From a virus, in IMG/VR virus record IMGVR_UViG_3300027793_000299, positions 1-22,557 of that record: 22,557 nucleotides of DNA. The stretch is one strand, 5' to 3'. Below the pieces are notes generated by a model. It was given only the letters and a program-made list of their open reading frames with translations. It was not told where the DNA came from and made no database searches. Made by a program: the position numbers and the translations under genes. Below are positions 7,434 through 21,792 of the stretch, in pieces (position 1 is the first letter of the stretch; every line of letters begins with the position of its first letter).

Positions 7434-7705
7434 CAGTCGCAGTCCCATGCCCGCAGGCTCTTGTTGATGCGCGAGTTGGGGTCGTTCGCCGTCTTCGCGC
7501 TGGTCAGTTTCGCTTTCATCCCCTTCATGCGCCGACAAAACGCAATGCGGCGCTTGGCGCTCGTCTCGGAGCGGGCCGCTTCCGCCTTCTTCACCGGCGG
7601 TTTGATGTCCCGCCCTTCGGCACGGAGCGAGGCGCGGCCTTTGGCGTTCAGGCCGCCCTCGGGATTCTTCCCTTCCGCTCGCTGCCACGCCGGTGTCTTC
7701 GGCAC
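7433..7705 (-). CDS. DUF6321-like small basic phage protein
   Basis: A 90-residue, strongly basic protein with the pattern EGKNPEGGLNAKGRAS ... RRIAFCRRMKGMKAKLT ... DPNSRINKSLRAW. I recognise this as a conserved phage family (DUF6321-like) usually found close to terminase and portal genes; its function is unknown. The Lys/Arg-rich sequence and single Cys could suit nucleic-acid binding or packaging. The start is a GTG at 7705 whose last base coupling (TAGTG) overlaps the upstream stop; there is no usable ATG near it. Confidence 0.8.
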   Translation of the reverse strand: MPKTPAWQRAEGKNPEGGLNAKGRASLRAEGRDIKPPVKKAEAARSETSAKRRIAFCRRMKGMKAKLTSAKTANDPNSRINKSLRAWDCD

Positions 7706-8052
7706 TAGTCCTCCTCGTCCTCCATCTCGTCCTCCTCCTCCATGTTCGACTCGTCCTCGTACTCCGAGTCGTTCATGCCGTCCTTGAGGAGGGCGAGTTC
7801 GGCCTTCAGATAGCCGATCTTCTCTTCCAGCGCGGCGATCTTCTCCGCCTTGGACATGCCTTCGCCCTTGGACGCATCCAGCTCCTCCTTCATGGAGGGC
7901 GATTCGTCCTTCCTCTCGCCTTTCATGGCGCCTTTCGGCGGACCCATGGCGATCATGATGGCCACGCCCGGTGGCCCTTTGCGCCGGGCCATCATGCGCC
8001 GCTTGCCGGTCTTGGCGATCACCGCTTCCATCCCTCGCTTCTTGCTGGCCAT
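7705..8052 (-). CDS. Hypothetical protein, basic start and acidic tail
   Basis: A 115-residue protein with two opposite halves. The first 50 residues are rich in Lys, Arg, Met and Gly (KKRGMEAVIAKTGKRRMMARR). Residues about 65-90 form a probable coiled coil (KIAALEEKIGYLKAELALL). The last 20 residues are almost entirely Glu and Asp. The ATG at 8052 overlaps the terL stop as TGATG; a GTG just upstream (8055) is also possible. Function unknown; the charge split could bridge DNA and a packaging or capsid protein. Confidence 0.7.
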   Translation of the reverse strand: MASKKRGMEAVIAKTGKRRMMARRKGPPGVAIMIAMGPPKGAMKGERKDESPSMKEELDASKGEGMSKAEKIAALEEKIGYLKAELALLKDGMNDSEYEDESNMEEEDEMEDEED

Positions 8053-9377
8053 CACCAGCCTCCCGGCAGTTGCGCCGCAAAGTCGCCCGCGATCACCCTC
8101 CGGCGGTTATCCACAGCCTCGCCAGAGTTATCCACATCCAAGTTTGGGTCATCGCCGACAAAACGCAAGCCCGGGGGCGCTTCCGGCACCACCCCCTGCA
8201 CCCGGTCCCACCCGTACAGGGCCAGCGCCAAAGCCATGACGCCGTCATCATGGAACCCGGAGGGGGCCTCATAGCGCACGCCGGTGGCGGTGTACATAAA
8301 CTCAAAGGATTCCAGCTCGCCGATCAGCCACCCGTCCGGAATCGTCAGTTCGGACCCCTGAAACGCCGCTACCAACCGCTGCATCAGGCGCAGTTTGGAT
8401 GGCTGGGTGAAGATATGAGGGGTCACATCCACCCCCATGCCCTGCAGATCGGACACAATGGCATCTCCGACGCCGGTGGCATCGGCCACGATGGGCGTTT
8501 GACCGACGATACCGCGGATTTTCTGCTTGGTTTCGGCCCATGACGCCTGCCATCGGTCCACAAACGCCACTTTTCTATACGCATCCAGCCCAATCACGAC
8601 GGTAAAGTCCATCGACCGCGCCAGATCGACGCCGTAGACGACCGGCTTTTCCGGACTCAGCGGTCCTATGGCCCGGTGGATGGCTTCCAACCCGAAGGGA
8701 TTGGCGCCATCGTCGGTCGGGATGCCCTCGAACTCCTGCGCAAAGACCTCCGGCGGCAGTTCTTTCCGGGCCGATTCGACTTCCTCCGGCGGAATATACG
8801 GGTTGTCCAGCGTCTTGGCGCGGAAGCTGGCCCAGTTGGGCTCGTTCGGGTCGTTTCCCCGGTTGAACAAGACGACAAACCCGTGCCGGCGCCCTCGGGG
8901 CGTGCCGAGAAACAGCCCACCGCCGGACAAATCCACCAGCGTGGGCCGGATCGCCCGCTGCCAGAGGTCCAGCAGGTCGGGCACGATCCCCGCCTCGTCG
9001 ATGATTGCCAGCTTGTATTTGCGCCCAAGGCCGGGATCCGGGGTATCCATCGTCCACATCTCGATCACCCCGCCCGTCACCAGCTCGATCCGGCGCTCCT
9101 GATCATTCGACCGGGCAATCACCGGCTTGAGGCGCTGCAGCAGCTCCCGCCAGACCTCCAGCACGTACTTGTACGTCGGCGCAAACCAGCCTACCGGATG
9201 CCCCGCCAACGCCGCGTCACAGGCTTCCCGGACACCCAGCGCCGTCTTCCCGAACCGGCGCCCACACATCACCACCTTGAACCGGGCCGGGTGCATCACG
9301 ATCTCCTGCTGCCCCGGATGCCGCCGGGCCAGCACGACCTGGACCTCCCCGCCTGACGGTTTCGCCTTTGCCGGCAT
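8052..9377 (-). CDS. terL: Terminase large subunit
   Basis: A 441-residue packaging motor: the N-terminal ATPase drives DNA into the prohead and the C-terminal nuclease cuts concatemers. Visible motifs: Walker A CGRRFGKT (38-45), Walker B LAIIDE (123-128), then an RNase-H-fold nuclease with acidic residues D251 (VYGVDLARS), D299 (PIVADATG) and D377/D378 (FHDDG). Motifs and length are complete. The ATG at 9377 has a GAGAGG site six bases before it. Upstream lies an AT-rich palindromic stretch that may hold its promoter. It ends overlapping the next gene. Confidence 0.95.
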   Translation of the reverse strand: MPAKAKPSGGEVQVVLARRHPGQQEIVMHPARFKVVMCGRRFGKTALGVREACDAALAGHPVGWFAPTYKYVLEVWRELLQRLKPVIARSNDQERRIELVTGGVIEMWTMDTPDPGLGRKYKLAIIDEAGIVPDLLDLWQRAIRPTLVDLSGGGLFLGTPRGRRHGFVVLFNRGNDPNEPNWASFRAKTLDNPYIPPEEVESARKELPPEVFAQEFEGIPTDDGANPFGLEAIHRAIGPLSPEKPVVYGVDLARSMDFTVVIGLDAYRKVAFVDRWQASWAETKQKIRGIVGQTPIVADATGVGDAIVSDLQGMGVDVTPHIFTQPSKLRLMQRLVAAFQGSELTIPDGWLIGELESFEFMYTATGVRYEAPSGFHDDGVMALALALYGWDRVQGVVPEAPPGLRFVGDDPNLDVDNSGEAVDNRRRVIAGDFAAQLPGGW

Positions 9378-9404
9378 ACGTCCTCTCGTAGTCGCGTTCT
9401 CTGA

Positions 9405-9452
9405 GTCTACACGCGTATACGTCTAGTATACTCTATTAACTAGTTATCGTTT
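9405..9452 (-). promoter_or_regulatory. AT-rich palindrome cluster upstream of terL
   Basis: In an otherwise GC-rich genome this short stretch is mostly A and T and holds three perfect palindromes: CGTATACG (9414-9421), AGTATACT (9425-9432) and TAACTAGTTA (9437-9446). AGTATACT provides a TATACT box on either strand; for terL transcription no good -35 lies 17 bases upstream (CAAACG), so an activator bound at the adjacent dyads would be needed. Alternatively the stretch is a DNA-unwinding element beside the dyads. Both readings are inferences. Confidence 0.45.
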
Positions 9453-9611
9453 GGGTGACTCCTGTGTCAGGGGTGACACTGTAGTCACCCCCAAGAAACC
9501 CCGAAGAACAGCCTCGGGGTTCCTTGGTCTGTTTTCTTTTTGCGCGAGGTGTTTGGGCATATTGCGCAGAAGTGATTGGCGTTCAACGCGTTTACTCGTT
9601 TCACGCGTCAA
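9444..9611 (-). CDS. Possible 55-codon basic protein between terS and terL
   Basis: An open frame starting with TTG at 9611 that overlaps the terS stop as TTGA, the same arrangement as the ATGA and GTGA joints elsewhere. An ATG at 9560 would give 38 residues. The peptide is basic and polar (SKRVERQSLLRN, KENRPRNPEAVLRGF, ending VSPLTQESPKR). It fills most of the terS-terL gap. Against it: no clear ribosome site, and the frame contains both the dyad block and the plus-strand hairpin. The ending resembles the linker of the initiator (ESPLTPQS), which follows from the shared DNA block. Function unknown. Confidence 0.35.
   Translation of the reverse strand: MTRETSKRVERQSLLRNMPKHLAQKENRPRNPEAVLRGFLGVTTVSPLTQESPKR
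9453..9491. repeat. GTGAC dyad block, copy B (operator or iterons)
   Basis: Contains GTGAC-N6-GTCAGGGGTGAC (9455-9477), overlapping a perfect inverted repeat GGGGTGAC-ACTGTA-GTCACCCC (9470-9491). The same block, including the same 18-base spacing between GTGAC words, occurs inside the initiator gene at 20443-20465. Both copies are also preceded by TCGTTTGGGTGAC (9447-9459 and 20388-20400). A site for one DNA-binding protein, possibly the phage initiator, is inferred. Confidence 0.6.
9491..9540 (+). terminator. Plus-strand intrinsic terminator-like hairpin
   Basis: A 14-pair stem with one mismatch (CCAAGAAACCCCGA at 9491-9504 against 9514-9527), a nine-base loop and then TCTGTTTTCTTTTT on the plus strand. 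On the minus strand no U tract follows, so termination would act on rightward transcription. No rightward gene ends here; it may block antisense transcription into terS or end a short RNA crossing the dyads. Confidence 0.55.
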
Positions 9612-10129
9612 CTTATTTCACCGTTTCCTGGCGCTAGCATCGGTGTAACGATCTGCGCGACCAGCATACTGCTCACTTCGGCGCTGACCCTCCGGGTCAT
9701 TTCTTCCATGGGCAGTTTTCTTCCCGGCGCCTCCTCCTCCACCACCTTGACTTGTAGCGTCTGGGCGCCTTGATGCTCCACCGTCTGGCGCTCCCCGTAC
9801 TCCGCCGGATTAGCCTTCGCCGCCGCCCACTTCAGCGTGTCGATTAGCAACCGATCCGCGGCGCTGGAATGATTCGTCGTCTCCCGCGCCACCTGGATTG
9901 CCTCCTCCGCCAGCGCCGCCGCCATCAGCTTCTTCGCCCGCTGATACCCCTCCAGCCACTCCGGACGCTCATCCACCCAGCGCCGCACCGTCCCGTGCGA
10001 CACGCCTACCTCCAGCGCCTTCACCGCCTCCTTGAGCGTCTTCCCCTCCGCCATCGCGCCTAACACCGCCAGCACCGTCTCCTGCTTGCTGTCCTTTTTT
10101 TGCTCTTCCTTTTGCGTTCGCCGCGCCAT
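9608..10129 (-). CDS. terS: Terminase small subunit
   Basis: A 173-residue protein that would recognise phage DNA and regulate the large subunit. The basic N-terminus is followed by a helix-turn-helix (about 31-52, TLKEAVKALEVGVSHGTVRRWV), then long helices with the pattern ERPEWLEGYQRAKK ... DTLKWAAAKANPAEYGE, typical of the Sf6/Bam-type small terminases. The C-terminal part (about 115-173) is variable and likely binds the large subunit. Its ATG has a strong site AGGAGGAG five bases upstream. A 20-base direct repeat pair and a G-tract hairpin lie upstream and may belong to its control or to the packaging site. Confidence 0.85.
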   Translation of the reverse strand: MARRTQKEEQKKDSKQETVLAVLGAMAEGKTLKEAVKALEVGVSHGTVRRWVDERPEWLEGYQRAKKLMAAALAEEAIQVARETTNHSSAADRLLIDTLKWAAAKANPAEYGERQTVEHQGAQTLQVKVVEEEAPGRKLPMEEMTRRVSAEVSSMLVAQIVTPMLAPGNGEIS

Positions 10130-15903: not shown

Positions 15904-16355
15904 GCGCTCACCTCCTGCTCTGCTGCCGCGACGGCGACACGGATCGCTTTCAGCGCCTCATCAAAGCACGACAGGTTGTAGATCTGCTCCCGCAAGGCGT
16001 CCACCATCAGGTCGCTTGGATTGCGCAGCGCGGCGAGGATGTCACGGGCACGTTCGTATTCCTTCTCGTACATCACGCTCATGCCAAAATGCGAATCACT
16101 GGTGCGCCGTTCGCGCTCTAGCAGCAACTCTGCGGTCATACGCGCCGTGTCGTGTTCATCCAACGCCTTCCGCAGCCGGTCGATCTCCTGCACCAGCACT
16201 AGCCCTTCGCCAGCGGCCAGCGTCCAGCCTTTCCGGGCCGTGGCAATGATGCGGTCCAGCCGGTCGCCGTAGCCGGCGCGGTGGTTGCCGAAGTTCCCGT
16301 CAGCCTTCGCGTCGGTCGGATCGGGGACGCGGCAGTCGGTCGGGGCGCTGCTCAT
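15900..16355 (-). CDS. Helical protein, tandem family copy 1
   Basis: A 151-residue protein. The N-terminal 40 residues are polar; residues 40-90 are likely coiled coil (VQEIDRLRKALDEHDTARMTAELLLERERR); the C-terminus has DILAALRNPSDLMVDALREQI and AIRVAVAAAEQEVSA, matching copies 2 and 3. The ATG at 16355 overlaps the upstream stop as ATGA; a longer frame upstream is shadow. Function unknown. Confidence 0.75.
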   Translation of the reverse strand: MSSAPTDCRVPDPTDAKADGNFGNHRAGYGDRLDRIIATARKGWTLAAGEGLVLVQEIDRLRKALDEHDTARMTAELLLERERRTSDSHFGMSVMYEKEYERARDILAALRNPSDLMVDALREQIYNLSCFDEALKAIRVAVAAAEQEVSA

Positions 16356-16528
16356 GCGACCTCCTGCAACTTCGCCTGCGCGGCTCGCGCTTGGGCGTGG
16401 TGCTTGTCGGCGTTCTGCAGTGCCAACGCCACCCGATCCAGCACCTTCCGATCCGCGTCGGAGATGACATGCCCCACCGCCAGATCGCGCACCCACTGCG
16501 TGAGGTAGCTGTCCAGTCTATCGCTCAT
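16352..16528 (-). CDS. Small helical protein
   Basis: A 58-residue protein, MSDRLDSYLTQWVRDLAVGH then a helix rich in Ala, Gln and Leu (RVALALQNADKHHAQARAAQAK). Overlaps both neighbours by four bases. No family recognised; size and coupling suggest a genuine accessory gene of the early operon. Confidence 0.65.
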   Translation of the reverse strand: MSDRLDSYLTQWVRDLAVGHVISDADRKVLDRVALALQNADKHHAQARAAQAKLQEVA

Positions 16529-19845: not shown

Positions 19846-20030
19846 GACGCGGACGCCTCCTGCTTCCGGTTCTTCTGCTCTTCACGCAGCAGGACGTTGA
19901 CCTTGGCCACCCGCTCCCGAACCCGGCGCCGCTGATGATCATCCCAGTACGCCATGAGATAGGTGTCCAAATGATCGAAGGCGTCGATCAACGCGACGAG
20001 CAACTCGTCAGAAACCTGGGCGTGCGTCAT
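19842..20030 (-). CDS. Small helical protein
   Basis: A 62-residue protein, helical and highly charged toward the end (HQRRRVRERVAKVNVLLREEQKNRKQE). The front is acidic and hydrophobic. Four-base overlaps at both ends tie it to the initiator gene upstream and the REFLMTG protein downstream. In lambda the gene after O is P, the helicase loader; this protein is much too short for P, so no such claim is made. Confidence 0.65.
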   Translation of the reverse strand: MTHAQVSDELLVALIDAFDHLDTYLMAYWDDHQRRRVRERVAKVNVLLREEQKNRKQEASAS

Positions 20031-20725
20031 GCGCTCAACTCCGTGGCAAGTCGGTCAAACTCCTGAACATCCTGTCCGCTTCTAGCCCACTCATCCCGGG
20101 TCCGGCCGTGGACCGTGACGGCCGACTCATAGGTCAGCCATGCGCCATCGGCAAAGAACCGATGCAGACTGCGCACAAAGCGGGGTTCGGTCTGTTTCCT
20201 GAAACACTCCTTGGTGTACTGCTCGGCAGCTTTGACCAGCTGCGCCGGGTCAGCGCCATCCTGCAGGCACTGCTTGATTGCCCGAAGCGCCGGAGGGAAA
20301 AGGTGGGGCGTATCACGATCCGGGTAGACGCTCCAGATCATCTTCGTCACCTGTTGCGCTAGATCGTTCAGTTTATCGTTCTTCTTCTCGTTTGGGTGAC
20401 ACAGCTGTGTCGGGGGTGGGGTGACTGCCCTGTCGCCCCCCAGTGACTGGGGAGTCAGGGGTGACTCTAGCACCACCTCGTACACGCTGGTCTTTCCGGG
20501 GCGTGGCATTTGGCGCAAATAGCCCTTGGTAATCAGGACCGGCAGCGCCCGCTGAACTGTCCTGGTAGACAGGTTGCAGGTTTTTGCCATCGTCTGGACA
20601 CTGGCCCAGACATTCCCGCCCAGTCGATTCGTAAACGTCCCGATGGCGCACAGGACGCGGACTTGGGTATCGCTCAGGTCAGGGTCAGCCACGGCAGCGG
20701 CGGGGATAATGGACAACACGGGCAT
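20027..20725 (-). CDS. Lambda-O-like replication initiator
   Basis: A 232-residue protein with an N-terminal winged helix (about 17-86: DTQVRVLCAIGTFTNR, VWASVQTMAKTCNLSTRTVQRALPVLITKGYL, then wing SVYEVVL), a low-complexity Pro/Thr linker (87-116) and a C-terminal helical domain (117-232). This is the build of phage initiators such as lambda O, where the DNA-binding domain binds iterons inside its own gene. Here the linker codons 87-111 coincide with the GTGAC repeat block at 20394-20468. It lies between HTH/nuclease genes and a primase-helicase. A transcriptional regulator is the main alternative. A GGAG lies about 11 bases before the ATG. Confidence 0.7.
   Translation of the reverse strand: MPVLSIIPAAAVADPDLSDTQVRVLCAIGTFTNRLGGNVWASVQTMAKTCNLSTRTVQRALPVLITKGYLRQMPRPGKTSVYEVVLESPLTPQSLGGDRAVTPPPTQLCHPNEKKNDKLNDLAQQVTKMIWSVYPDRDTPHLFPPALRAIKQCLQDGADPAQLVKAAEQYTKECFRKQTEPRFVRSLHRFFADGAWLTYESAVTVHGRTRDEWARSGQDVQEFDRLATELSA
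20394..20468. repeat. GTGAC dyad/iteron block, copy A (candidate origin)
   Basis: GTGAC recurs at 20396, 20421, 20443 and 20461. Named elements: a perfect palindrome GACACAGCTGTGTC (20398-20411), a near-perfect dyad GGGGTGAC-TGCCCT-GTCGCCCC (20418-20439), and GTGAC-TGGGGA-GTCAGGGGTGAC (20443-20465) identical outside the N6 to 9455-9477. It lies in codons 87-111 of the initiator gene. A T-rich, GC-poor stretch (20367-20390) adjoins it, as an unwinding element would. Origin function is inferred from the lambda parallel. Confidence 0.55.
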
Positions 20726-20740: not shown

Positions 20741-20962
20741 TTACTTGCGGTGTCTGGAATGGGTGCCTTGGTTGCCGCCTCGCGGCCGGCGTTCGATGCC
20801 CGCCCGCTGCAGCATGGAGTGGACCGCTTGCGGCGTGACGCCCACCATGTCCGCAACGGCGCGGATAGACAGGCCGCTTTGATACAACGCCGCCACGGCT
20901 TGTCGCCGGTCCTCGTTCGGTCGCTGCCCGGTATGGGCAAACCGCTTGGTGCCTTTGGCCAT
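20741..20962 (-). CDS. Small helix-turn-helix protein
   Basis: A 73-residue protein with a resolvase/Hin-type helix-turn-helix at about 20-57 (EDRRQAVAALYQSGLSIRAV, ADMVGVTPQAVHSMLQRAGI) followed by a basic tail (ERRPRGGNQ). The ATG at 20962 shares bases with the nuclease stop (TGATG), so the six codons upstream are left out. Probably a DNA-binding regulator of early genes or a partner of the initiator just downstream. Confidence 0.75.
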   Translation of the reverse strand: MAKGTKRFAHTGQRPNEDRRQAVAALYQSGLSIRAVADMVGVTPQAVHSMLQRAGIERRPRGGNQGTHSRHRK

Positions 20963-21792
20963 CACAGTCCTCCATCCCACTGCGGGCAGAAAAGGGATAC
21001 GTCACAGTAGTGTTGACACCGCTTGTACTCCCCCGGCCGGGTCTGCACTTCGTACCCTGCCGGGACTTCGCTGTCAGCTGGCGGCGCCTCGTACAGCTTC
21101 AAGGCACGGGAAGCCCCGGGCTTGATTACGGCGTACTTCGTGCCGCTGTACCACCGCTCTTCGTCCGTGCAGGCAATCGGCTTGCCCGCCCGGGCCTGCT
21201 GGTGCAGGGCCACCCGCTCTTCGATGAAATCCTGCGCTTCCTGCAAATCCCACACGGGGATTTCGATGCGCTGGATCGCCGCCTTGGGGTAGTCGTCCGA
21301 CCGTTCCGCCTCCGTCTTTCGCCAGTCGCGGAAGATGGCAATGATCTCCAGCGTCTCCACCTCGTACCCGTTCTGCGCGGCCAGCCAGCGCAGCACGTTG
21401 AGCTGCTGGATCCACTTGTCGTTCCCCTTGGCCTTGTAAACGGTCGTGACTTTGTAATCACTGATCCGCTTCTGGTCCAAGTCCATCACGTCGAACTGGC
21501 CAGAGACGGACCAGCCCATCACCTCGGCAAAGAGGCGCTGCTCCGCGATCATCCCTTCCTGCCGGAGCCCGGCCCGCTCCAGAATCGTATGGACCGCCTG
21601 CCCCAGCAGGGACCACACCCGCTCAGACACATCGACCACGATCTCGTTGTGATGCCGGCGGCTTAACTCCGCCACCTGGGGGGCGTCGATCAGCTTCGTG
21701 GCGCTGATGTCCCCGCCCCCGGTGTACGGGTCGTTGGTCACGGCTGCCACGATACTCTGTGGCAAGCCGTGGACGTTCGTCACTTTGGGCAT
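20962..21792 (-). CDS. RecB/Cas4-type PD-(D/E)XK nuclease
   Basis: A 276-residue exonuclease-like protein. Core motifs: GQAVHTILE with H68, SGQFDVM with D101, ISDYK with D112 and K114, and the helix QQLNVLRWL (Q130), the order of RecB-family nucleases. Cysteines at 208, 259, 263 and 269 (the last three in RCQHYCDVSLFC) are placed as in enzymes such as Cas4 and AddB that hold an iron-sulfur cluster. It would process DNA ends for recombination or degrade host DNA. It is not near any CRISPR array. Co-encoded with an OB-fold-like protein just upstream. Confidence 0.85.
   Translation of the reverse strand: MPKVTNVHGLPQSIVAAVTNDPYTGGGDISATKLIDAPQVAELSRRHHNEIVVDVSERVWSLLGQAVHTILERAGLRQEGMIAEQRLFAEVMGWSVSGQFDVMDLDQKRISDYKVTTVYKAKGNDKWIQQLNVLRWLAAQNGYEVETLEIIAIFRDWRKTEAERSDDYPKAAIQRIEIPVWDLQEAQDFIEERVALHQQARAGKPIACTDEERWYSGTKYAVIKPGASRALKLYEAPPADSEVPAGYEVQTRPGEYKRCQHYCDVSLFCPQWDGGL

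Follow-up and report, generated by a model that had tools for sequence, protein, structure and literature searches.

A dyad array between the terminase genes terS and terL, candidate second site for an O-like replication initiator and for control of late genes

The terS–terL gap and its dyad array

The window, the whole stretch of DNA analysed here, is a virus record of 22,557 bases, and all half-site and stability counts reported below cover its full length. On the minus strand, the gene coding for the terminase small subunit (terS, Sf6-like; 9608-10129) precedes that of the terminase large subunit (terL; 8052-9377), and the gap between the two contains an ordered set of elements, namely, after terS, a strong hairpin, an array of two dyads, a AAACGATAA tail, an AT-rich stretch and the terL leader. 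The array (9453-9491, minus strand), which has terS directly upstream and terL as the first gene downstream, was delimited from its sequence and its conservation in relatives. It is formed by two dyads 18 bp apart, with the organisation GGGTGAC-N6-GTCA-CCCC-TGAC-N6-GTCACCC, in which the spacers are TACAGT and ACAGGA, in that order. The tail (9444-9452, minus strand) directly follows the last GTCACCC.

The initial annotation had reported that this block recurs far away in the same genome, and reading of both sequences confirmed that 9455-9477 (GTGACTCCTGTGTCAGGGGTGAC) and 20443-20465 (GTGACTGGGGAGTCAGGGGTGAC) are identical except for the N6. In addition, TCGTTTGGGTGAC is present at both loci (9447-9459 and about 20388-20400), and the terL copy includes the perfect GGGGTGAC-N6-GTCACCCC that had been described, at 9470-9491 (GGGGTGAC-ACTGTA-GTCACCCC). 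The best match to the latter inside the initiator gene, at 20418-20439, has one mismatch (GTCGCCCC). The word GTGAC-N6-GTCA occurs four times in the window, against 0.23 expected occurrences and at most two in any of 100 shuffled sequences. The half-site GGGTGAC/GTCACCC is present in 10 copies, and clusters of at least three half-sites within 80 bp are found in the window only at the terL and origin loci, while not even one such cluster was produced in 1000 first-order Markov simulations. Chance or scattered repeats are thus ruled out by the shuffles, by the simulations and by the confinement of the dyads to two loci in relatives (see below). Many scattered copies would have spoken against the proposed recurrence, and the motif scan instead places the copies at two loci.

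The AT-rich palindromic stretch noted beside the terL copy is also borne out, as no other 40-bp segment in the 22.5 kb is less stable than 9415-9454; this segment contains the palindromes ACTAGT and GTATAC and a -10-like TATACT. The third least stable 40 bp in the window (20359-20398) adjoins the origin array, low-stability DNA being located on the same side of both arrays, and the terL-side segment is also the least stable in several relatives. A turn of the GC skew is absent at both loci, including the main origin. The hairpin (9491-9527, minus strand), situated between terS and the array, has a 16-bp stem and a 5-nt loop (z = -6.6), and a hairpin is kept at the same place in other sequences of the subclade of the window. 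In one sequence (L005) the stem is changed on both arms with the pairing preserved. This hairpin is a possible terS terminator, although it has no U-tract.

The origin array and the probable binder of the dyads

The second copy of the dyads is located 11 kb from the terL array, inside the gene of an O-like replication initiator (20027-20725, minus strand), the proposed binder of both arrays. The protein has an N-terminal HTH_36 domain (E-value 3e-12) and matches phrog_270, replication initiation protein (E-value 5e-20), as well as phrog_391 and phrog_678 ('replication initiation O-like'). The origin array (20388-20466, minus strand) includes three dyads and one half-site, 22 and 24 bp apart; these dyad iterons occupy the linker-coding region after the HTH domain. 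The array is followed by AAACGAG and a ladder of AACGR with a period of 12-13 bp. AAACG(A/G) also trails the origin copy at the position that matches the terL tail. These main initiator sites, inside the initiator's own gene, would constitute the replication origin. The array is conserved at the DNA level, since the clade origin word GTCACCC-(A/T)AACG(A/G) is kept even though it is read as a CHPNE-like peptide in six genomes and as an SPKR-like peptide in nine. The retention of the same DNA in two reading frames indicates that the DNA itself is under selection, and excludes conservation at the protein level as the cause of the repeats.

A blind scan for GGGGTGAC-N6-GTCACCCC was performed over 2.9 million viral contigs (IMG/VR), and 80 loci were analysed. 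In 41 of these the dyad lies in, or no more than 200 bp from, an ORF matching the profile of the initiator N-terminal domain, and in 38 it is inside this ORF, in most cases 10-85 residues past the HTH domain. A control dyad of equal composition gave 16 loci, with no profile-matching ORF at any of them. With one exception, the profile matches of the dyad-bearing ORFs are weak in sequence (E-values 1e-8 to 1e-2), which points to distant family members and not to copies of the window phage.

Variants of the dyad are also shared between the two loci of the same genome: relative G003 has N8 spacers, and G019 the right arm GACACCC, at the origin and terL loci alike. In two other relatives, G013 and G017, the O protein has no N-terminal HTH and neither array is present. 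The truncated initiator homologues of these phages, devoid of the N-terminal DNA-binding domain, are found at about record 37451-37860 (L207) and about 16003-16413 (L218), and their origin must be recognised in some other way. The window codes for a further candidate, a small HTH protein (20741-20980, minus strand) next to the initiator gene, which is disfavoured as the binder because its gene is retained in G013 and G017, where the dyads are absent. The blind-scan matches in O-like ORFs, the conservation of DNA in two frames, and the joint absence of HTH and arrays in G013 and G017 make the initiator the most likely binder, and we consider it very probable that the dyad is the recognition site of the HTH_36 O-like initiator family. 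The proposed connection of the initiator to both loci is well supported on comparative grounds, by the dyads in other O-like genes, the shared variants and the phages that lack both HTH and arrays.

The terL array in relatives and the module that replaces it

An array upstream of terL is present in many relatives. Across 14 distinct terL-array sequences the terL-proximal arm and the tail are near-invariant, and the spacers variable. In relatives' records of 14-40 kb, some of them as long as 38-40 kb, perfect or near-perfect dyads are practically confined to two places, the origin and the region before terL. In two-dyad terL arrays the spacing is always 18 bp (20 with N8 spacers), compared to 22-25 bp for the origin dyads, and the terL array has neither the third dyad nor the AACGR ladder, both found at the origin. 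The two arrays have the same orientation and a common (A/T)AACGR tail. As judged from these sequence comparisons, the dyads common to both loci are tied to this family of initiators, and the conserved terL array has a geometry of its own. No second cluster of perfect dyads was found in the 26 other dyad-bearing records, several of which are fragments, so the terL copy looks clade-specific. No close cultured phage relatives and no prophage relative of the initiator were found, and the search with terL gave only one distant match (26% identity, in a Chitinophagaceae MAG contig). The dyads are absent from PP496355 and MZ127829, the two cultured phages examined that have a distant match to the O protein, and solved structures gave no sequence match.

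Some close relatives lack the terL array. In G001 the initiator is 99% identical and TerL 95% identical to those of the window, and G016 is likewise without the array; given the near-identity of the G001 initiator, the array must be dispensable at the level of the clade. The initial annotation had considered that absence from close relatives at both loci would count against its proposal: both loci do recur among relatives, although the terL copy is missing from these close ones.

The array-less phages with a complete initiator have TTGACA or TTGACG in the same terS–terL gap, preceded by direct repeats of 11 bp (GATTAAGATTN-like) (G001, L196, 18764; G016, L216, 5249; G004, L201, record 32514; G007, L226, 11212; G009, L234, 5245). 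This element is found nowhere in the array-bearing phages, and the exchange of the array for a promoter-like module at the same gap suggests a common regulatory role. The module resembles the sites of an OmpR/PhoB-type activator, and in several array-less relatives the 11-bp repeat and TTGACA are accompanied by a TAGGTT-like hexamer. No regulator gene common to every array-less phage was found; only the inserted genes of phages with a long gap correlate. In these long-gap relatives, genes for metallophosphoesterase-like and HELCH metallopeptidase-like proteins lie between terS and terL (L206, record 7506-9721; L226, 9395-11254; L234, 3519-5375; L201, record 32387-34226), together with a tRNA-Met in three of the four. 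The gap of G001 also contains GGTATGAC-GCTACA-GTCATACC (L196, 18722-18743), a possible altered dyad or terminator. In other relatives, low-complexity (TAGTAGC)n or (AACGAGT)n of variable length lies between the array and terL (L027, about 2590-2750; L039, about 9870-10000).

Late-operon control and alternative readings

We propose that the terL array controls the late operon (terL, portal, scaffold and capsid) in response to the initiator, a reading to which we assign a probability of about one half. The broader idea, that the initiator doubles as a late-transcription switch using a dedicated operator of distinct geometry (18 bp, against 22-25 bp at the origin), timing genome copying as well as packaging and head synthesis, is more tentative. 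According to this proposal, 9453-9491 would be a second binding array for the O-like initiator, located where the late operon begins, and initiator dimers would occupy its two dyads in a fixed geometry unlike that of the origin. The occupied array would act as a switch for the transcription of packaging and head genes, more likely by activation or licensing than by repression, and the late genes would be switched on once the initiator accumulates and templates multiply. A scan for sigma-70-like promoters gave no hit in the array gaps or in two array-less gaps, and no -10-like hexamer is found at a fixed distance from the array, TATACT being present downstream in some clades at varying distances. 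We infer the presence of a late promoter in the terS–terL gap itself, as well as the binding of the initiator at terL and the sign of the regulation.

Of the three roles initially offered for the terL copy, an operator for late genes fits best, and a link between replication and packaging is suggested by the position of the array. The third, a second origin, is weakened by the different spacing and by the missing third dyad and AACGR ladder, but deserves closer consideration because the same architecture is known from the Bacillus phage SPP1. In SPP1, gp38 has two binding regions, oriL, which lies within the gp38 gene, and oriR, which is part of the late region at a distance of about 12-13 kb; both include repeats and an AT-rich unwinding element, oriR being described as built like oriL, and gp38 bound at oriR has been proposed to stall forks (PMC6316719, PMC3485210). 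The likeness to our system is one of architecture, comprising an origin in the initiator gene, a distant second array in the late region, and AT-rich DNA beside both. In contrast to SPP1, the second array here has another spacing and fewer elements, is located exactly between terS and terL, and its sites are dyads. By analogy with oriR, the bound initiator would fire a second origin, or stall forks that arrive from the origin, 11 kb distant, and so promote a switch from theta replication to concatemers for packaging. The same orientation, the AACGR tail common to both arrays and the low-stability DNA on the same side of each are origin-like features that count against the operator, and the window also encodes an exonuclease, which the recombination-dependent switch would need. 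However, the gap is also AT-rich in the array-less G001, where it is the least stable part of its half of the contig, making AT-richness a weak argument for a second origin. The absence of a GC-skew turn also speaks against this role, albeit by a criterion that fails at the main origin as well, as does the absence of the array in G001 and G016. The AACGAGT/TAGTAGC repeats before terL were considered as an unwinding element for such an origin, a possibility weakened by similar repeats in the array-less G001 and G009. Overall, we regard an oriR-like second origin or fork barrier as the main alternative, if a rather less likely one.

It is improbable that the terL array is a titration or handcuffing locus, which would limit replication by soaking up the initiator or pairing with the origin, as the incA/incC iteron clusters of plasmids do. 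These are extra initiator-binding clusters outside the origin, near the replicon, and in this they resemble the terL array, but they do not precede structural genes. High-quality palindromic sites with a fixed geometry away from the origin would suit titration, but the position is bound to the terS–terL gap, and not merely distant from the origin, and it is there that the promoter-like module replaces the array. Slightly less probable still is a packaging signal, in which the array would mark or block the start of packaging by the terminase beside terS. The array does directly follow terS, and headful phages have pac in or near this gene (in SPP1, pac overlaps late promoters), but all comparative evidence assigns the motif to the initiator, and closely related terminase pairs exist without the array. 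Finally, RNA hairpins in the terL leader, controlling translation or termination, are highly improbable, since, even though the minus-strand RNA folds into the 16-bp hairpin and then a dyad hairpin, the dyad arms are near-invariant rather than compensated, the spacers are free to vary, and the origin has the same dyads.

Other systems share some of these traits. In phage lambda, the O protein has an N-terminal domain of the winged-HTH type, followed by a linker whose coding sequence contains dyad iterons, with AT-rich DNA adjoining them, as observed here, but the iteron sequence is different. The late genes of lambda depend on Q, and a second array of O sites is not known to precede its terminase genes. 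The small genome of the satellite phage P4 also has two initiator-site clusters far apart from each other (ori and crr), of which crr is required in cis for replication, but the P4 initiator is unrelated.

The two-site architecture is known from SPP1. As far as could be checked in the open-access literature, the new aspects are the location of the array in the terS–terL gap, its distinct geometry and the exchange of modules. How phages with no known late activator start their late genes after replication is often unknown, and the initiator is a testable candidate. In SPP1, late transcription requires an early factor that has yet to be identified, which makes the idea of the initiator as a switch worth testing. 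A natural experiment is available in sister phages whose initiators and terminases are almost the same and which carry at the same place either the array or the TTAAG-repeat/TTGACA module. In addition, GTGAC-N6-GTCAC can be used as a motif to search for origins across a wide range of HTH_36 initiators. If the proposal is correct, one protein may link the copying of the genome to its packing.
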